Positions 1-16,933 of a stretch of 18,380 nt of DNA are shown one piece after another. A program made the position numbers and the translations under genes. Source of the stretch: Pseudomonadota bacterium. Its GTDB lineage: Bacteria > Pseudomonadota > Gammaproteobacteria > Xanthomonadales > Xanthomonadaceae. The notes under the pieces are model-generated. The model was given only the letters and a program-made list of their open reading frames with translations, had not been told where the DNA came from and ran no database searches. The first letter of the stretch is position 1; every line of letters starts with the position of its first letter. The stretch covers positions 1-18,380 of the forward strand of contig JAHWKC010000008.1 of assembly GCA_019348095.1 (NCBI GenBank), given 5' to 3'.

Positions 1-272
1 AGTGGCGTCACCGTGATGACGTCTTCCTCGCTGAAGGTGCCCATGCGGGTCAGGCACATCAGCCGCGGCTTGCCGTTGATCTCAGCGCTGCACGAGCCGC
101 ACTTGCCGGCCTTGCAGTTCCACCGCACGGCCAGGTCCGGCGCCTGCGTCGCCTGCAGCCGGTGGATGATGTCGAGGACGACCTCGCCCTCGTTCACCTC
201 GACCAGGAAGTCCTCGAGCTGGCCGCCGTTCTCGTCGCCGCGCCAGACCCGCAGACTTGCCTCGTAGCTCAT
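1..272 (-). CDS. sdhB: Succinate dehydrogenase / fumarate reductase iron-sulfur subunit, N-terminal part (cut by window edge)
   Basis: About 90 codons are present; the rest lies left of the window. The protein would carry electrons from the flavoprotein through iron-sulfur clusters towards quinone in the membrane-bound complex. The visible part is the 2Fe-2S ferredoxin-like domain: the cysteine cluster reads CKAGKCGSCSAEINGKPRLMC, that is C-x4-C-x2-C-x11-C, near residues 53-73. The preceding stretch with EVNEGEVVLDIIHRLQ and LAVRWN resembles, from memory, the actinobacterial SdhB type and not the E. coli-like SdhB expected in Xanthomonadales. The ATG follows the TGA of the upstream gene with no gap, and a GAGGAGAGC stretch just before it can serve as ribosome site, so the two are probably translated together. 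Family call is firm; the taxonomic remark is an inference. Confidence 0.9.
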   Translation of the reverse strand, partial: MSYEASLRVWRGDENGGQLEDFLVEVNEGEVVLDIIHRLQATQAPDLAVRWNCKAGKCGSCSAEINGKPRLMCLTRMGTFSEEDVITVTP

Positions 273-2243
273 TCAGCTCTCCTCGAAGATCTGGGCCAGG
301 TCATCGGGCATCACGGGCAGCGGCTTGCGCGACAGCGAGATGTCCTCGCCGTCGGCGGAGCAGATGACATTCACGGTCGCCCACTCGTCGCGCGGGCCGG
401 GGAAGTCGTCGCGGGTGTGCCCGCCGCGGCTCTCCTCGCGCTCGAGCGCCGCCTTCGCGATGCACTCCGACACGCGCAGCATGTGCGGCAGGTCCAGGGC
501 CAGGTGCCAGCCCGGGTTGTACTGCCGGTGGCCCTCCACGGTGAGCGCCTTCGCGCGCACCTTCAGCTCCTCGATGCGCACCAGCGCCTGCTCGATCTCG
601 GCGGCCGTCCGGATGATGCCGACCAGGTCGTTCATCGCCGTCTGCAGCTCCTGGTGGATCGTGTACGGGTTCTCGCCGCCCTCGCGCGCGAACGGCGCCA
701 GCGCCGCCTGCGCCGCGTCGGTGATGGCCTCCTCGCGCAGCAGGCCGGAGGGGGCGCTGCGGGCGCGCTCGGCCGCCGCCGCGCCGGCCCGGCGGCCGAA
801 CACCAGCAGGTCCGACAGCGAGTTGCCGCCGAGCCGGTTGGAGCCGTGCATGCCGCCGGCGACCTCGCCCGCGGCGTACAGCCCGGGCACGACCGCTGCC
901 GCCGTCTCCGGGTCGACCTCGACGCCGCCCATGACGTAGTGGCAGGTCGGCCCGACCTCCATCGGCTCGGCGGTGATGTCGACCTCGGCCAGCTCCTTGA
1001 ACTGGTGGTACATCGACGGCAGCCGCTTCTGGATGTACTCCGCGTCGTGCCGCGAGGCGATGTCGAGGAAGACGCCGCCGTGCGGTGAGCCGCGGCCGGC
1101 CTTGACCTCGCTGTTGATGGCGCGGGCGACCTCGTCGCGCGGCAGCAGCTCGGGCGGAGTCACCCAGCCTTCATCGATCAGTTGCTCCAGCACCACCAGG
1201 TGCGACAGCGCGAACTTGCCGCCGAACAGCGGCTCGAACGCGCCGCCCTCGTGCAGGTACTCGAGCAGGTCGCGCAGGCCGCTGAGGTACACCGCGTCCT
1301 TGGTCAGCCCGCCGCCGCGGCGTGCACGCACGGCCACGTCGAATGCATCGCCGGTCGGCAGGCCGTGCTCCTCGTGCAGGCAGTGGAAGATCGCCGGAAC
1401 GTCCTGGCCATGCATGGCCATCTCGATGGCGAGCACGCGCGCGGCCAGCACCCGCAGGCGTTCGGCCGGCAGGTAGCCGGCAAGGAACTCCGAAAGCACG
1501 CCGATGCCTTCCTGCAGCGCGTCGTAATGCGCCAGCCCGACCTCCAGCTGCCGCAACGACTGCCTGCGGCCGTTGTGCCGGGTCACCACGTGGGTGCCGA
1601 TCTCGTGCTGGATCAGCGGCTGCACGCGCGCGCGCGGCACGCGCAGCTTGCCGTCGATGTAGAACCTGCCGTGCGAGACCATCATCAGCGAGTTGAGGTC
1701 GTCATCGACCACCACCTCGGCCTCGAACCCCGGCGCCTGTTCGCGATACCAGTCCAGCTCGGCGTGGACTGCCTCGAGCACCTCGTCGATGCCGGTGTCG
1801 TCCTGTGGCACCGGGCCGGTCTCGACGGTATCGAGGATCTCGCGCGCGAGCTTCAACAGCCGCGGCTCGACCCCGCCGAACAGGTCGATGCTGGCATTGA
1901 CGAAGCCGTCGGTGCCACGCAGCCGGACCAGCTCGATCTGGCGGTCGAGCTCGCGCTGCTTCTCCGACAGCAGCCCCTGCAGCAGGGCCGATTCGACGTC
2001 CTCCATCGGCAGCGCCAGCAGGGCCTCGCGCGCGGCGTGCAGGTCGATGTCCAGGTCGAGGTACTCCAGCAGCGGGACCGCGGTGCGGCCGCTGTCCTCG
2101 AAGCTGCGCCACAGCGTGTCGTTGTGGATCGGCGACAGCGCCAGCAGCCAGTCGATCTCGCCGTCCATCCGCGCCAGCGCGGCATCGACCCGCGCCGCGA
2201 CCGGCGGCAGCGGGCGCGCGTCGACGGTCCCGCTCAGTGACAC
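273..2243 (-). CDS. Chimeric ORF: DUF1704 (QEGLA-motif, MATCAP-like) metallopeptidase fused in frame to the C-terminal part of SdhA/FrdA
   Basis: A single uninterrupted 656-codon frame holds two unrelated proteins. Residues 1 to about 367 are a DUF1704 protein ('flavohemoglobin expression-modulating QEGLA motif protein'): HEIGTH at 213-218 (HExxxH zinc-peptidase motif), the QEG motif as QEGIG at 244-248, and GGKFALSH near 341-348. From about residue 368 the sequence is the second half of a succinate dehydrogenase/fumarate reductase flavoprotein: [12 protein letters not shown] at 384-395, TCHYVMGG with the catalytic-type His at 435, [11 protein letters not shown] then [20 protein letters not shown] at about 454-485, then the helical domain. 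The FAD dinucleotide-binding N-terminal half (about 340 residues, with the GxGxxG motif and flavin-linking His) is absent, so the SdhA part cannot work alone. The joint lies within [11 protein letters not shown], near 1131-1151. The start is a GTG that overlaps the end of the preceding amidohydrolase gene by 10 bp, a pairing typical of the DUF1704 neighbourhood. Genuine deletion-fusion or misassembly are both possible; the latter is likelier. Confidence 0.85.
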
Positions 2244-3121
2244 CGCAGGAACTCCCCGCGCACCGCGTCCACCGCATGCCGCAGGCCGGCACGAAAATTC
2301 TCGATCACCGCGATGTCGGCCTGCGCGGTCCACTCGTCCATGTAGACCTTCTTGTACTCCAGCGATATCGCGCAGACCTTGTCGCCGTAGGTCGCATGCA
2401 GCCATTCGGGGAAGTGCCCGCCGCCTTCGTAGCGCACGTTCTCGCGCACGTCCGGAGTGCGGCCGGCGACCTTCGTCGCGCGCAGTTCGCGGGCGAAGCG
2501 TGCGACCGCATCGCCGAAGCGCGCAGGGTCCAACGTGGTCACGCCCAGGTCGATCTCGGGATTGGCGGCCGGATCGGCCGGCGCCGCCGCGGGCCCGTCT
2601 CGCCGGTGGTTGTAGCTGTGGATGTCCAGCAACAGCACGCAGCCCCAGCGCGCGGTCATCGCGTCCACCAGCGCCCCGATGGTCGTGTAGAAACGGTCGT
2701 AGTAGGCCAGCGACTGCTCGAGCTCGGACTGCGGCGGTGCGGTCTGCCAGACCTCCAGGTCCCAGGTGTCGGCCGGATTGGTCGAGATCGCCAGGTCGCG
2801 CGGCCGGTTCAGATCACACTGGAACCGTGAGGCGTGTACCCGCACCTGCACGTCGCCGACGGTGGTCAACACCCCGGTCAGGGGGTCCTCCTCGCGCCGG
2901 CGGTCGGCCTCGGAGATTGCCATCCACTGCCGCAGCGAGTCGCGCACGGTGTGGCCGTCGTGGATGGCCGTGGCGATGACCGGGCCGTCGCCGAGGGTGA
3001 TCTCCCAATCGGGGGTACGGCGATCCTCGGCGGGGATCGCCTTGGATAGATGCGCCTCCGATAGCTGCGCCTGGGACAGATGCGTGTGCGCGTCGTGGTC
3101 GGTGTTGCGGGCCTGCGGCAT
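2234..3121 (-). CDS. N-formylglutamate amidohydrolase family protein
   Basis: 295 residues from the chosen ATG. The family hydrolyses N-formylglutamate to formate and glutamate or acts on related amides; homologues stand beside DUF1704 genes, as here, so the physiological substrate may be something else. Motifs seen: AIHDGH at 52-57, NRPRD at 105-109, DIHSYNHRR at 166-174 (metal and substrate binding region), GGHFPEWLH at 234-242 and [13 protein letters not shown] near 253-265. The recognisable fold begins at WEITLGDGP (about 39). In-frame ATGs also lie at 3253, 3181 and 3172; none has a strong ribosome site, and the extra residues look non-conserved, so 3121 is a judgement. The N-terminal tail carries three pentad-like LSxAx units. 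The stop overlaps the next gene's GTG by 10 bp, implying coupled translation. Confidence 0.85.
3045..3089 (-). repeat. Three degenerate 15-bp tandem units inside the amidohydrolase N-terminus
   Basis: The + strand units are GATAGATGCGCCTCC, GATAGCTGCGCCTGG and GACAGATGCGTGTGC, at 3045, 3060 and 3075. On the coding strand they give [14 protein letters not shown], a pentad pattern reminiscent of, but too short to call, pentapeptide repeats. They lie in the poorly conserved leader of the protein. Confidence 0.7.
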
Positions 3122-3461
3122 GCTTTCAGGTTCCGGTCGTCGGCCGATTTCCGGTCGGCGGCATGGTCCCATCGGCGGCATGAGCTGTTCGTGATAGTTC
3201 GGCCGCGGCGGCTCGCTTTGAGCGGGATGCCAAGCCCGCACGACTGGTTGCATTCAGTCCCTGTTGCGGCCGCCGCAGCGTCGCCCTCACCGCACGTCGC
3301 GGGGCGTCGGCTGCGATAGGCGAGGCTCGATCGCTTGGTCCGGCCGGATGCCCGCGGGTTGCACCTGGCGGCCGGGTTAACTAGCCTGCCGGGGTACCAA
3401 CGCTCTGGCGCCGTGAATGTCACCGGCGTATTCCCTCCCTTCTCCTAGTCGAGGTTTCCCC
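3122..3461. other. Intergenic region between divergent amidohydrolase and slyD-like genes
   Basis: 340 bp without a convincing gene. It should hold the two divergent promoters. Open frames here have no family resemblance; part of it could be an N-terminal extension of the amidohydrolase if an upstream ATG is used. The only specific signals I see are a weak promoter candidate towards slyD (3359-3387) and the GAGG ribosome site at 3451-3454. Confidence 0.5.
3359..3387 (+). promoter_or_regulatory. Possible sigma-70-like promoter for the slyD-like gene
   Basis: TTGCAC at 3359-3364 and TAGCCT at 3382-3387 are separated by exactly 17 bp and lie about 75 bp before the start codon. The -35 matches the consensus at 5 of 6 positions, the -10 only weakly, which is common in high-GC genomes. 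Placement by eye only. Confidence 0.3.
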
Positions 3462-5557: not shown

Positions 5558-6235
5558 ATGACTACACCTCCACAAAACCAGCCCGGACGCGTCGAACCGG
5601 GTGGAGCCTCGCGCAGCGACGGCCGCGCCGACCGCAGTGAGCTCAGGGATTCCGCCCAGGATCTCGCCGGCCAGGCAAAGACCGAAGGGAAAGCCCGCAT
5701 CGACGACATGCGCGGCACCGCCGCCGACAAGCTCGACAAGCTCGCCGACAGCGTGCAGGCGGCCGCCTCCGAGCTGAAACAGGACGACATCGGGCACCTG
5801 TCCGATTACGTGTCGAGTTTCGCCGACAACATGACCCGGTTCTCCCGCAGCATGCGCGAGAAAAGCGGCGACGAGATCGTGCGGGAAGTCGGCCAGCTCG
5901 CTCGCCAGCATCCGGCGATGTTCATCACCGGCAGCATCGCTGTCGGTTTCGGCCTGGCCCGGTTCGCACGTGCTTCGCAGCCATCCCAGGCGCAGTCCAC
6001 AGCGCTGCAGGACAGCACCGGCTATTCGACATCGACCGGCTATTCGTCCGCGAGTCCCTCGGCCGCCGGCACCGGTGCGAGTGGCAGTGGTGCGACCGAT
6101 TTCTACAGCGGTTCCGCCCGCAATCCCGGCTCCACCGGCCAGACCGGCGCCGGCTCCCGAAGCGACGACGACCACCCCTACTCCGGCAGCAGCCCATCGG
6201 GCTCCTCGCCAGGCACCCCAGGAGGGATCCACTGA
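5558..6235 (+). CDS. Membrane-anchored helical protein with Ser/Gly-rich tail, first gene of envelope operon
   Basis: 225 residues, no certain family. Residues 29-115 are amphipathic and charged, with many Ala/Lys/Asp/Glu, and look like coiled or bundled helix resembling DUF883/ElaB or 'nutrient deprivation-induced' proteins. Residues 119-137 (HPAMFITGSIAVGFGLARF) form one hydrophobic segment. The tail (141-225) is low complexity: Ser, Gly, Thr, Pro with short repeats such as TGYS. I infer a small inner-membrane stress protein; the function is unknown. GGAGA lies eight bases before the ATG. Its TGA shares one base with the ATG of the next gene (TGATG), so it is translationally coupled to the holin-like protein. 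Confidence 0.85.
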   Translation: MTTPPQNQPGRVEPGGASRSDGRADRSELRDSAQDLAGQAKTEGKARIDDMRGTAADKLDKLADSVQAAASELKQDDIGHLSDYVSSFADNMTRFSRSMREKSGDEIVREVGQLARQHPAMFITGSIAVGFGLARFARASQPSQAQSTALQDSTGYSTSTGYSSASPSAAGTGASGSGATDFYSGSARNPGSTGQTGAGSRSDDDHPYSGSSPSGSSPGTPGGIH

Positions 6236-6717
6236 TGAACGCACAACCCAACACGAACAGAACGCACGACCCGCAAGCCGGGACCCGCGCGCAAGCCGGC
6301 AACGGCCACGCCCAGACCGGCAACGGCCATGCCCAGACCGGCGATCCCTCCTTCGGCGTCCTGCTCAGGGAACTGGCGCACGAAGTGCCGGCCCTGCTGA
6401 CCAAGGAGGCCGCGCTGGCCAAGAGCGAAATGCGTGAAAACCTCCGTGCCACAAAGGAGGGCGTCGCCGCGGTATCCACCGGTGGCGCGGTGGTGCTGGG
6501 CGGCTTCATCGTGCTGCTGATGGCGGCGGTGTACGCGTTGAGCAACGTGATGGCGCCGTGGCTGGCGGCGTTGCTGGTCGGCGCGGCGGTGATCGTGGTC
6601 GGCATGATCATGGTCTCGGCCGGCCGCAAGAAGTTCCAGGCGCAGTCGCTCCGGCCCGACCACACCATGAGCTCCCTGCACAAAGACCGGGACGCTGTCC
6701 GCGGGAGGACCCAATGA
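6235..6717 (+). CDS. Phage holin family protein (holin-X / DUF1469-like), second gene of operon
   Basis: 160 residues. Two adjacent membrane helices at about 78-103 and 108-130 follow a conserved amphipathic stretch FGVLLRELAHEVPALLTKEAALAKSE (40-65), the usual layout of this family. Despite the name, chromosomal members are not known to lyse cells; a role in envelope or cell-shape stress is only a guess. The N-terminus (1-37) is polar and contains GNGHAQT twice in tandem (22-35). GGAGGG precedes the start, and the last four bases ATGA overlap the next gene. Confidence 0.85.
   Translation: MNAQPNTNRTHDPQAGTRAQAGNGHAQTGNGHAQTGDPSFGVLLRELAHEVPALLTKEAALAKSEMRENLRATKEGVAAVSTGGAVVLGGFIVLLMAAVYALSNVMAPWLAALLVGAAVIVVGMIMVSAGRKKFQAQSLRPDHTMSSLHKDRDAVRGRTQ
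6298..6339 (+). repeat. Two 21-bp tandem units coding for GNGHAQT
   Basis: The units at 6298-6318 and 6319-6339 differ at only one base (CAC versus CAT) and lie in the disordered N-terminus of the holin-like protein. They probably vary in number between strains. Confidence 0.85.
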
Positions 6718-7508
6718 ACACTCGAGACAGTATTCGCACGCAATCGCAGAAAGACCCCGCCCAACTCGAACGCGAGATCGATCGGCAACGTGACCACATC
6801 GGCGAGCTGATCCAGGCGCTGGAGCACAAGATGTCTCCGGGCCAGATGTTCGAGCGGGCACTGAGCTACGGCAAGGGCGGTGGTCGCGAGTTCGCCAGCA
6901 ACCTCAGCGATACCGTCCGGGCCAACCCGGTGCCGACGCTGCTGACCGCGGCCGGCCTGGCGTGGCTGTACGCCGGCCAGGGCAAGCGGCCGGCCGATCG
7001 TTACGGCACCACCCAGACCACCGGGCACGTCAGCGGCAGCCAGCACAAGTCGCATGTCGGCGAGCGTGTAGGGCAAATGCGCGCGGGCATGTCCGAGAAG
7101 GTGGGCTCGGCCCGGCATCGCATCGGTGAATCGGCCCATGGCGCGATGGATTCGGCCCGGCACCAGGCCCAGCGGGCGAGCGCCGGCTATCGGGACATGC
7201 TCGACAACAACCCGATGGCACTTGGAGCGATCGGCATCGCCGTGGGCGCGCTGATGGGAGCCATGCTGCCTTCCACCCGCAGGGAAGACCAACTGATGGG
7301 CGAGGCCAGCGATCACCTCACCGAAGAAGCCAAGCACAAGGCCCGCAGCGGCATGGACCAAGCCGTTCAAGCCGGGCGCGAGGCGACCGAGCCGGCCGCG
7401 CATGCCGGTGGCCAGCACCGCAGCAGCCAGAGCCAGAGCCAGACGCAGAGCCAGACGCAGCCGCCGGGCATGGGCAACAGCCCGACCAGCGGCCTGAGCC
7501 AGCTCTAG
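6714..7508 (+). CDS. DUF3618-domain membrane-associated protein, third gene of operon
   Basis: 264 residues. Residues 14-52 (DPAQLEREIDRQRDHIGELI, then LEHKMSPGQMFERALSY) match the DUF3618 motif as I know it. Two hydrophobic segments, at about 71-88 (NPVPTLLTAAGLAWLYAG) and 166-185 (NPMALGAIGIAVGALMGAML), flank an amphipathic Ala/His/Arg-rich region; both begin with the same NPxxL...G pattern, suggesting an internal duplication. The C-terminus ends in a Gln/Ser/Thr repeat (SQSQSQTQSQTQ). The ATG overlaps the previous stop by four bases, with GGAGG seven bases before it. Function unknown; co-occurrence with a holin-X protein is typical. Confidence 0.88.
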   Translation: MNTRDSIRTQSQKDPAQLEREIDRQRDHIGELIQALEHKMSPGQMFERALSYGKGGGREFASNLSDTVRANPVPTLLTAAGLAWLYAGQGKRPADRYGTTQTTGHVSGSQHKSHVGERVGQMRAGMSEKVGSARHRIGESAHGAMDSARHQAQRASAGYRDMLDNNPMALGAIGIAVGALMGAMLPSTRREDQLMGEASDHLTEEAKHKARSGMDQAVQAGREATEPAAHAGGQHRSSQSQSQTQSQTQPPGMGNSPTSGLSQL

Positions 7509-10883: not shown

Positions 10884-12098
10884 CTATTGCCGCACCACCC
10901 GGTTGCGCCCCGCCCGCTTGGCCGCGTACATGGCGCGGTCGGCACGCGCCACCGTTTCGGTCACCGTCTCACCCGGGCGATGTTCGGTCACCCCGGCCGA
11001 GAAGGTCAGCGGCACGGCTTGGTCCAGCGGCAGCACGCGGATGGTTGCGAGCAGGCGCTCGACACTTGCCTGCGCCTCCGGCGCCCGGGTATCGGGCAGC
11101 AACAGCAGGAACTCCTCGCCACCCCAGCGCGCGATGGCGTCGCCCGAGCGCAGCGTCGCCTCGGCCTCACGCGCGAATGTGCGCAGCACCTCATCGCCGC
11201 CGCCATGGCCGTGCCGGTCATTGACACACTTGAAGTGGTCGAGATCGATCAGCGCGATGCTGAACGGGTGACCGCTGCGCTGGAAACGGCTCTGCTCCTG
11301 CGCCAGACGCTCCTGCATGTGCCGGCGGTTGGCCAGCGCGGTCAGCTCGTCGTGGGTCGCGAGCCGCTGCACCTCGGCGAGGGCGGCAGTCAGCCGGGTG
11401 CGCTGCGAACGCAGCCGGGTGCGCAGCGATGACAGCCGCGCCGCCACCAGGGAGATCGCCGGCAGCAGGATCATGATCATCATCACGTTGGTCAGGTCGA
11501 TCCGCAGCTCGGCGTGGTCGAGCGCCCAGGTGCCGGAGCCCGGCCGTGCCGCGTGCAGCGCGGCCGCCACAGCGATAAGGCTGGTCAGGGCGAATACCGT
11601 CAGCCAGAGGATCCGGCGCCAGCTCAGCGAGAACGCCCCGAAGGTGAAGATCAGCAGCAGCGGCAGCAGCGTCACGCTGCGCGCCGGCCCGCAGATCACG
11701 TAGCCCCACTCCACCGCTACCACGCCCAGCACGATCTGTGCGGCGGTCAGGCCCGGATCGGCCAGGTGTTCGCTCCATCCGCTGCGCAAGGCGATGTAGA
11801 CCACCAGCTGCGCGACCACCAGGAAGCCGCACCAGGCGATGAAGCTGGCCGGGTAGACCCAACCCTGGCGAGAGCCGACCCACAACACCGCGGCGCTGCC
11901 GAGGTACACCAGCACCGATATCAGCCACTGGGCGATGCGGATCCGGCGCCGCGGATCGTGGCTCAGCACGGCATCGGCCAAGCGACGGACGCCGGCGCAG
12001 CGCAGCGCCACCGCTGCGGCCCCGGGATCGGTGTCGCCCTCTGGCAGCTCGACCACATCACCCCCGGCCGCACCGCGCCGCGGCGGCAGCGGCATCAT
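10884..12098 (-). CDS. Diguanylate cyclase with six-helix membrane sensor domain (GGDEF)
   Basis: 404 residues from the chosen ATG. The enzyme would make cyclic di-GMP from two GTP at the inner membrane. After a polar leader of about 50 residues, hydrophobic segments lie at about 54-74, 82-104, 117-135, 140-157, 162-182 and 202-220; then a short coiled linker and the GGDEF domain (about 244-401). It keeps HDELTALANRR, LIDLDHFKCVND (Asp285), the active GGEEF at 326-330 and an RSGD inhibitory site five residues before it (317-320), so it looks catalytic and product-inhibited. In-frame ATGs at 12170 and 12386 exist; the codons before 12098 are unlike the gene's usual ones and 12386 would run through a GTAG palindrome, so I prefer 12098 (paired ATG ATG after TTGGGAAAC). 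No known ligand for the sensor part. Confidence 0.9.
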   Translation of the reverse strand: MMPLPPRRGAAGGDVVELPEGDTDPGAAAVALRCAGVRRLADAVLSHDPRRRIRIAQWLISVLVYLGSAAVLWVGSRQGWVYPASFIAWCGFLVVAQLVVYIALRSGWSEHLADPGLTAAQIVLGVVAVEWGYVICGPARSVTLLPLLLIFTFGAFSLSWRRILWLTVFALTSLIAVAAALHAARPGSGTWALDHAELRIDLTNVMMIMILLPAISLVAARLSSLRTRLRSQRTRLTAALAEVQRLATHDELTALANRRHMQERLAQEQSRFQRSGHPFSIALIDLDHFKCVNDRHGHGGGDEVLRTFAREAEATLRSGDAIARWGGEEFLLLLPDTRAPEAQASVERLLATIRVLPLDQAVPLTFSAGVTEHRPGETVTETVARADRAMYAAKRAGRNRVVRQ

Positions 12099-12265
12099 GT
12101 TTCCCAATCTGCCTTCTTCATTCTGCGGCAGGACATGTCCGGTCACGGTTCGCGCGGCATTCGATTCCATACGCGCTGGTTGCCAGCTCGGATGCAGGTG
12201 GTCTGACCGCAGCCGGCCCGAGCGGTTCAGCGGCTGGGGCGCCGACAGGTGCCTGCCGGGCCATC

Positions 12266-12288
12266 GTAGCAGCGGCCCATGGCCGCGA
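12266..12288 (+). repeat. GTAG-headed palindrome (SMAG/REP-like)
   Basis: GTAG at 12266-12269 heads a stem CGGCC-CAT-GGCCG; the body agrees with the reverse copy at 12375-12399. Confidence 0.65.
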
Positions 12289-12374
12289 GCTCTTCGCTCA
12301 GGCCGCGGAACAGTCGGGGCCGATGCAGACCGAGCCCAGCGGCGCAATTGCCGTTCGCCGGCCGGGTCGGAAAG

Positions 12375-12440
12375 CATCGCGGCCATGGGCCGCTCCTACA
12401 GAGGCGAGGACGTGACCCGTAGAGCCGAGCTTGCTCGGCT
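12375..12440. repeat. Inverted pair of GTAG-headed palindromes (SMAG/REP-like)
   Basis: A left copy (12375-12399) on the minus strand with stem CGGCC-CAT-GGCCG ends in CTAC; a right copy has GTAG at 12419-12422 and stem AGCCGAGC-TT-GCTCGGCT (12423-12440). The two belong to different stem subfamilies, as at 16957-17103. Confidence 0.8.
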
Positions 12441-14789: not shown

Positions 14790-15055
14790 GGCGTTCGGCG
14801 CTCCTGTGCAAGAGCCGGGTCGGGCGAGTTTGCCCGGAGCGCGGCAATTCACCGGCGCCCCGTTTCGGCACCCGCGATGCAACCGTCGGGCAGGCCTCCA
14901 TCACCAGGTGCCGATCACAAAGCGAGACCCTGGTCGCGGCATGGTTCTTGCAACCACGGGACAATCGCCATGACAGCCCGCAGTGTCCGCGGGTCGCCAT
15001 GTCCGCACCACGCCCGTTCCCCCCGCGTTTGCTGCCATCGCCAGAGCCCATCCGA

Positions 15056-16933
15056 ATGCCGCTCTCCCGCCTGCTCCTACTCCTGATGCTGCTCGGCCCG
15101 ACTTGGCAGGGCGCCGCCACGCCGGCGCCTCTTTCACACGGTGCGGCCGAGGCCGCGGGCGACGGTTTTCCGACACCGGCCGTGGACATCGCCACCCTGC
15201 TGGTCGATGCCGACGACGATACCGTGCCGGACCGACTCGGCGAGCGCGCACGCGTGCGGGGCGTGGTGACCATCTCGCCGCGCACGCTGAGCAGCGCTTA
15301 TTTCCGCGCCGTGGTCCAGGACGACAGCGCCGGCATCGTGCTGTTCTCGCATGACCTGAGCATGCCGCTGGCGCCGGGCGAGCTCATCGAGGCCCGCGGT
15401 GTGGTCGGGCAGTTCCAGGGAGCGGTGCAACTGCAGGACGTCGAAGTCGAGCGCATCGGCCGCGCGCCGCTGCCTGAGCCGGTGCCCCTCAGCGCCCGGC
15501 GCGCCTACAGCTGGGCCCACATGGGGCAGCGGGTGCGGGTAGAAGGCCGCTCCGGTGGCGTCACCCTGAACTCCTTCGGCACGATGCAGGTCACCGGCGA
15601 CGATGGCGCCGAGCTGACCCTGTATTTCCCCGAGAGCGTGGTGCGCGACTTCGACTGGGAGCATTACCCGCATGGCACGCACGTCGCAGCAACCGGCGTG
15701 GTCTCCATCTACAAGCGCACCTGGCCCTACGATGGCGGCTTCCAGGTGATCGTGACCGACCCCGGCGATCTTGCCGTACTGGCGCCCCCGGCACCGCAAT
15801 GGCACGGATGGGCGCTGTGGACGGCGCTTCCGGTCGCCGTGCTGCTGGTCCTGGCGCTGCTGGTATTCCTTCTGGCCCAGCGCCGCCAGAAGACGCGCCG
15901 GCACGAGCTGGCGACGCTGACCGCACTGTCGACCGCAATCGGCGTGCCGGACCTGGATCGCGAACAGCTGGCACGCCGCGCCTGCGACATCCTGACCGCC
16001 TACGGCATCGCCGAGGCGGCGCTTGTGCATGTCTTCGACGGGCGCGGGGGCCTTCAACGGCTCGCCACGTCCTCGGCCGATCCGGCGCGCGCCATCAACT
16101 TCGACCTTGGCGCGCTGCTGCAGGCCAGCGACCCCGGCGCGGTCGCCAGCGCACCCAGCCAGGAGCACCGGCGCCTGATCGACCAGAGCCTGTCGGCCCA
16201 GGGACTGACCCTGCTGGCGGTGCATCCGCTGCCGTCGCTGTCGGGCACCCAGGGGTTCTTTGCCGCGCTGTCCTCGCGCAATCGCCGGCCCAGCGCGATG
16301 CAGGACCGGACCCTGCTCTCGGCGGTGAAGCTGCTGGCGCTGGCGCTGGAGAACAGCGAGATCCGCCAGCGCGCCCGCGCCGAACAGCAGGAGCTGCACC
16401 AGCTGGCAATGACCGACGAGCTTACCGAGCTCTACAACCGTCGCTTCCTGGACGAGTACCTGCGCGTGCAGCTGCCGTTGACCAAGCGTCGCGGCGGTCA
16501 TATGGCGTTCCTGGCCATCGACATCGATTGCTTCAAGCCGGTCAACGACACCTGGGGCCACGAAGTCGGCGACCGCGTGCTGGCGCGGGTGGCGGCGGAG
16601 ATCCGCCACTGCACCCGCAGCGGCGACCTGGCGGTGCGGATGGGTGGCGAAGAATTCCTCATCGTGCTGGCCGATGCCGACGTGGATGACGCCACGGTCT
16701 TTGCCGAGCGCCTGCGTGAGCTGATCCAGGACAAGCGGTTCGAAGACGTGGTCCCCGGGACCGCATTGCAGGTCACCGTCTCCATCGGGGTCGCGGTATT
16801 CGGGGTGCACGGCGAGAGTGCCGCCGCCCTGCTGCGCGCCAGCGACGCCGCGATGTACCTGTCCAAGCGCAGCGGCCGCAACCGCACCACGCTTGCCGAT
16901 GACAGCCGGCGGGACGCACCCGCCAGCGCATGA
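15056..16933 (+). CDS. Diguanylate cyclase with tandem periplasmic OB-fold-like domains, GAF-like and GGDEF
   Basis: 625 residues. Signal-anchor or signal peptide at 1-20 (MPLSRLLLLLMLL, cut perhaps after QGAA). Residues about 60-135 (GERARVRGVVT, then FRAVVQDDSAGIVLF) and about 155-240 (GQRVRVEGR, then YPHGTHVAATGVVSIYK) look like two tandem OB-fold units. One membrane helix is at about 252-275. A cytoplasmic GAF-like region (286-440) leads to the GGDEF domain (445-610): MTDELTELYNRR, AIDIDCFKPVND, GGEEF at 530-534 and an RSGD inhibitory site at 521-524. It should make cyclic di-GMP in response to a periplasmic cue. An in-frame ATG at 14999 would add 19 residues in front of the hydrophobic stretch, so 15056 fits better. 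The 266-bp gap before it shows nothing clear. Confidence 0.9.
   Translation: MPLSRLLLLLMLLGPTWQGAATPAPLSHGAAEAAGDGFPTPAVDIATLLVDADDDTVPDRLGERARVRGVVTISPRTLSSAYFRAVVQDDSAGIVLFSHDLSMPLAPGELIEARGVVGQFQGAVQLQDVEVERIGRAPLPEPVPLSARRAYSWAHMGQRVRVEGRSGGVTLNSFGTMQVTGDDGAELTLYFPESVVRDFDWEHYPHGTHVAATGVVSIYKRTWPYDGGFQVIVTDPGDLAVLAPPAPQWHGWALWTALPVAVLLVLALLVFLLAQRRQKTRRHELATLTALSTAIGVPDLDREQLARRACDILTAYGIAEAALVHVFDGRGGLQRLATSSADPARAINFDLGALLQASDPGAVASAPSQEHRRLIDQSLSAQGLTLLAVHPLPSLSGTQGFFAALSSRNRRPSAMQDRTLLSAVKLLALALENSEIRQRARAEQQELHQLAMTDELTELYNRRFLDEYLRVQLPLTKRRGGHMAFLAIDIDCFKPVNDTWGHEVGDRVLARVAAEIRHCTRSGDLAVRMGGEEFLIVLADADVDDATVFAERLRELIQDKRFEDVVPGTALQVTVSIGVAVFGVHGESAAALLRASDAAMYLSKRSGRNRTTLADDSRRDAPASA

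Follow-up and report, generated by a model that had tools for sequence, protein, structure and literature searches.

An in-frame fusion of MATCAP and SdhA at the end of a Lysobacter-like draft contig is almost certainly an interspecies assembly chimera

A single open reading frame that joins most of a MATCAP/DUF1704 (QEGLA) protein to the C-terminal half of a succinate dehydrogenase flavoprotein (SdhA) is almost certainly an assembly error and not new biology, and we put the probability that the fused gene is an interspecies assembly chimera at roughly 96%. Two origins of the contig, the place of the switch between them, the contig end and the native sdh genes of the same draft genome are established here. 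The action of the assembler and a co-sampled actinobacterial parent are what we infer.

The window (the whole stretch of DNA that was analysed, 18,380 b) is a complete contig (C469) of a draft genome (G000) that consists of 480 contigs (2.71 Mb, 72% complete); the foreign piece therefore sits in the last ~1.14 kb of the contig. It is terminal, since sdhA runs into an actinobacterial-type sdhB, of which the first 89 residues are encoded (best match PRK12386) before the gene is severed at base 1. The low contamination listed for the draft (1.4%) counts against a chimera.

Results

The fused frame and its domains

The sequence-only reading had described one open frame joining an apparently nearly full DUF1704 peptidase to the last ~290 residues of SdhA, with the FAD-binding half missing, and all of this was borne out. 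The frame (2243-273, minus strand) has 656 codons and no internal stops. Its mechanical ORF begins at 2405 and ends at 273, while the GTG at 2243, which overlaps the stop of the upstream FGase gene, is the start that agrees with the MSLSRAVAARPL start of P0001, a protein of Lysobacter sp. D1-1-M9. Residues 1-369 represent the QEGLA protein without the last 29 residues of P0001, and residues 363-656 represent the C-terminal half of SdhA, corresponding to residues 303-597 of the 598-aa protein P0009, so that about half of SdhA is missing (Table 1).

A Pfam profile search placed MATCAP (PF08014, which we take to be the former DUF1704) at residues 47-369 with E 4e-75, well past the Pfam cut-off (253 vs 27), and Succ_DH_flav_C at residues 530-643. 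FAD_binding_2 was found at residues 365-476 as the end of the profile alone (290-414 of 414), which means that the FAD-binding N-terminal part of SdhA is absent from the fused frame. In NCBIfam, TIGR02421 (QEGLA) matched residues 22-369 below its curated cut-off (280 vs 339); the intact P0001 also misses this cut-off (278 vs 339), and thus the shortfall is not due to the joint. The PRK07803 SdhA model covered residues 362-655 (profile 315-611) with a score of 479 against a cut-off of 819.

Table 1. Features at the low-numbered end of the window
Feature	Position	Strand	Basis
QEGLA/MATCAP (DUF1704) gene of the proteobacterial host, GTG start, last ~29 codons missing	1137..2243	-	profiles; P0001 90%
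Joint, 21 bases coding PPELLPR, compatible with both parent genes; origin switch inside or at its edges	1137..1157	-	locus alignments
Actinobacterial-type sdhA, C-terminal half, ~295 codons, FAD-binding N-terminal half absent	273..1157	-	profiles; P0009 95%
Actinobacterial-type sdhB start, cut by contig end	3..272	-	PRK12386, profile 1-89 of 255
FGase (N-formylglutamate amidohydrolase-like), native gene next to QEGLA on its upstream side	2234..3253	-	ORF and profile

Elsewhere in the window, the plus-strand interval 5558-7508 is occupied by consecutive small genes whose base composition is of the family type, and one of them (6235-6714) encodes a PF07332 ('Actinobacterial Holin-X' family) protein. 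A glutaminase and a short-chain dehydrogenase are encoded between two closely spaced GGDEF (diguanylate cyclase) genes (10884-12386, minus; 14945-16930, plus).

Different origins of the two halves

Among the best 120 of 8000 scored candidates, the QEGLA half was 90% identical to P0001, with the same start, and the SdhA half was 95% identical to P0009, an actinobacterial-type SdhA (PRK07803) whose named relatives among the matches belong to Frankiales, Mycobacteriales, and Actinomycetota. The two halves of the frame thus point to different phyla. The fused gene differs from P0001 in lacking its C-terminal end and from actinobacterial-type SdhA in lacking the first ~302 residues, including most of the FAD-binding domain. 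The QEGLA matches (~390-450 aa) covered at most 60% of the query and the SdhA matches 45%, and no protein among these best 120 of 8000 carried both Pfam families. When only 101 residues with the joint at their centre served as query, PF08014 was found in none of the best 120 matches, all of which carry flavoprotein domains. Plasmid records matching one half or the other numbered 586, and none covered 80% of the query at a single location.

At the DNA level, 80 loci were kept of 588 confirmed in genome contigs as matching the SdhA half, and nearly all are titled Actinobacteria, the exceptions, going by titles alone, being L090 (Acidobacteria) and L035 ('Bacillus'). A Frankiales locus (RYN_172, L032) resembles the foreign piece at 88% DNA identity, with sdhB next in the same order. 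The family comparison set comprised 99 genomes, i.e., G000, the only member of its genus in the set, and 98 others. Among the matches listed for these 99 genomes, long SdhA-type matches were at most 38% identical, the window itself excepted; short SdhA-type ones (~130 residues) reached at most 52%, and QEGLA-type ones up to 77%.

The joint

The sequence-only reading had set the joint in a stretch that fits both proteins, and this placement was correct. Blastn alignments to 19 family loci (from 19 genomes) stop at window positions 1133-1138, and those to 79 of the 80 actinobacterial-type loci kept of 588 start at 1154-1158, the remaining locus (L097) giving a short alignment piece only. At position 1136, where the codon following PELLPR begins, all 19 family loci have T and the window has G. 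In the 32 bases at 1159-1190, family loci agree with the window at 18-28 positions and actinobacterial-type loci at 6-11, and in the 31-32 bases just below the joint the order is reversed (7-17 vs 20-32). The pattern-based finding of the joint in the family loci gave usable sites in 3 of 19 (L133, L138, and L140), and the others were left out.

The 21-base word at the joint is CCGCCCGAGCTGCTGCCGCGC. Of the 80 actinobacterial-type loci kept of 588, 6 have this exact 21-mer at the joint and 74 do not. It is present in none of the 19 family loci, two of which (L003 and L005) differ by 1 mismatch and the other 17 by 2-6; the nearest family genome by DNA (G167) has 4 mismatches. P0001 reads TRPELLPRYW at the joint, with R in place of the first P of PPELLPR, so that as few as 18 bases may be shared. 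Judging from these alignments, the stretch shared by the true parents was probably 18-21 bases. Because the true parent genomes were not found and the presence of the word was judged on relatives alone, we infer rather than observe a 21-base identity between the parents. That DUF1704 proteins often end near a PR-rich stretch, as the sequence-only reading had suggested, is roughly right, with 29 residues beyond PELLPR in P0001.

Base composition

A third-order Markov contrast was trained on 9 family loci against 20 actinobacterial-type loci (out of the 80), after everything homologous to window positions 1-3300 had been masked. The score per kb was -10.9 for positions 1-1136 and +16.3 for 1158-2243, and the 14 later tiles of the window scored +9.5 to +29.7, showing that base composition flips at the same place as the origin switch. 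Held-out actinobacterial control tiles had a mean of -15.2 (sd 7.6, n=156; 6 above zero), and held-out family control tiles a mean of +14.7 (sd 7.8, n=29; 1 below zero). Because the native sdhB-sdhA stretch of G000 scored +10.4 as against -17.0, -19.3, and -10.9 for three actinobacterial sdhA-sdhB stretches, the flip is not explained by gene content. By tetranucleotide distance, positions 1-1137 were no outlier, their distance from the rest (0.0275) being below that of 3 of the 15 other tiles. Two origins within one contig are thus found by protein identity, by locus alignments, and by the Markov contrast.

Native sdh genes and the normal context of QEGLA

The draft genome has its own sdhC, sdhD, sdhA, and sdhB on another contig (C471), with sdhA at full length, and these genes exceed the cut-offs of TIGR02970, TIGR02968, TIGR01816, and TIGR00384. 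The native SdhA is merely 34% identical to the fused SdhA piece. When G000 was queried with P0009 for a second piece of actinobacterial SdhA, only the native SdhA and a 50-residue match on C174 were obtained, and positions 1-1137, when searched against G000, matched only three short stretches apart from the window itself (at most 33-52 query bases, E 2e-4 to 8e-4).

Gene order was examined in 17 family genomes, out of 48 others with a strong match. All 17 (25 loci) have the order FGase, QEGLA, and a glutathione-synthetase-like ATP-grasp gene. The window shares the FGase neighbour with these genomes but, unlike all of them, has no ATP-grasp gene after QEGLA. Relatives with QEGLA and no adjoining SdhA piece, which the sequence-only reading had named as evidence against a real fusion, are what was found in every case: at E 1e-10, actinobacterial SdhA was near QEGLA in none of these 17 genomes, none of which is of the genus of G000.

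Compared with the copy in G167, the ATP-grasp gene that comes after QEGLA shows 77-93% identity in the 16 remaining genomes. In G000 the best match reached only 35% and proved to be a paralogue on C110, a glutathione synthase by TIGR01380 (score 362, cut-off 299); apparently, therefore, the incomplete draft lacks the true continuation. A DNA search of the rest of G000, run without a positive control, likewise turned up neither the lost end of QEGLA nor the gene after it. The missing continuation fits a contig that leaves its path at the joint, short of proof.

Some related observations concern the same genes. The trio of FGase, QEGLA/MATCAP, and ATP-grasp genes is partial in the window (1137-3253, minus strand) and complete in L148, L114, L150, and others. 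Eukaryotic MATCAP1 reportedly detyrosinates tubulin, and tubulin tyrosine ligase is ATP-grasp-like; by analogy, a terminal residue of some substrate might be attached and taken off by the bacterial MATCAP and ATP-grasp proteins, which we offer as a lead only. In two family genomes QEGLA is in two pieces, namely G010 (C16:174749-175836, adjacent on one contig) and G092 (C10 and C12, two contigs), for which a frameshift or further assembly breaks are possible causes.

Discussion

The evidence described above is best accounted for by an interspecies assembly chimera. As far as base ~1157, counted from the opposite end, the contig comes from a Lysobacter-like (Xanthomonadaceae-type) genome, and at that base the assembler would have met a word of about 21 bases that was also present in the sdhA of a co-sampled actinobacterium. 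It would then have quit the QEGLA gene and continued for ~1.14 kb along the actinobacterial sdhA-sdhB until the contig end, and no MATCAP-SdhA protein of this kind would exist inside any cell. The frame stays open across the joint because both genes read the shared word in the same frame. Under an independent-base model, two 3-Mb genomes of 69% GC should share ~66 words of 21 bases by chance, and many de Bruijn assemblers begin from words of about 21.

Chimeric metagenome contigs of a similar kind, in which two species are united at a shared word, are a known phenomenon: as described in PMC8171044, chimeric nodes are stretches common to two species in multi-species graphs. The species considered there are evolutionarily similar, unlike the present case, in which the parents seem to belong to different phyla. 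In PMC7881036, species of low to intermediate coverage are found more often in chimeric contigs.

An unbroken sequence and an open frame would also be expected if the joint had formed in a living cell by recent illegitimate recombination with actinobacterial DNA, a microhomology of ~21 bases having allowed an sdhA-sdhB fragment to replace everything from the QEGLA end onward and leaving a dead fusion; it is well established that short homology can serve recombination too. We regard this as very improbable, because the foreign piece begins in the middle of a gene and soon runs to the contig end, as artefacts do, and because the 17 family genomes in which gene order was inspected show no such joint. 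The piece also keeps its distinct composition and 95% protein identity to actinobacterial-type SdhA, so that any recombination would have to be very recent. To the more particular possibility that a Lysobacter-like bacterium very recently recombined in the cell with an actinobacterium, and now expresses a MATCAP-SdhA fusion beside a transferred sdhB, we attach scarcely any likelihood.

The sequence-only reading had offered a deletion or a misassembly across a short shared sequence as the source of the fusion. The misassembly fits the evidence, but the deletion within a single genome does not. Both gene families are indeed present in the bacterial family, as a fusion of the organism's own QEGLA and sdhA by internal deletion would need, but its native sdhC, sdhD, sdhA, and sdhB are all in place, its own SdhA is far from the fused piece in sequence, and the piece, whose type is that of another phylum, runs into an sdhB of that same type. 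We have rejected this explanation, whose probability we consider negligible. A functional bifunctional protein, in which the metallopeptidase domain would act on or with an SdhA-like domain, was rejected at an equally vanishing probability: the frame is open and the QEGLA half has a HEIGTH stretch, which presumably resembles the zinc site of a peptidase, but the SdhA half is devoid of its FAD-binding N-terminal part, and no other protein with both domains is listed among the best 120 matches to either the full query or the joint query.

The value of this interspecies assembly chimera is one of caution only. Chance words of 21 bases are common between GC-rich genomes, and a word that is read in the same frame by both genes makes an artefact resemble a clean gene fusion. 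Before a fusion at a contig end in a draft genome is given a biological reading, it should be examined for a change in the origin of its DNA.
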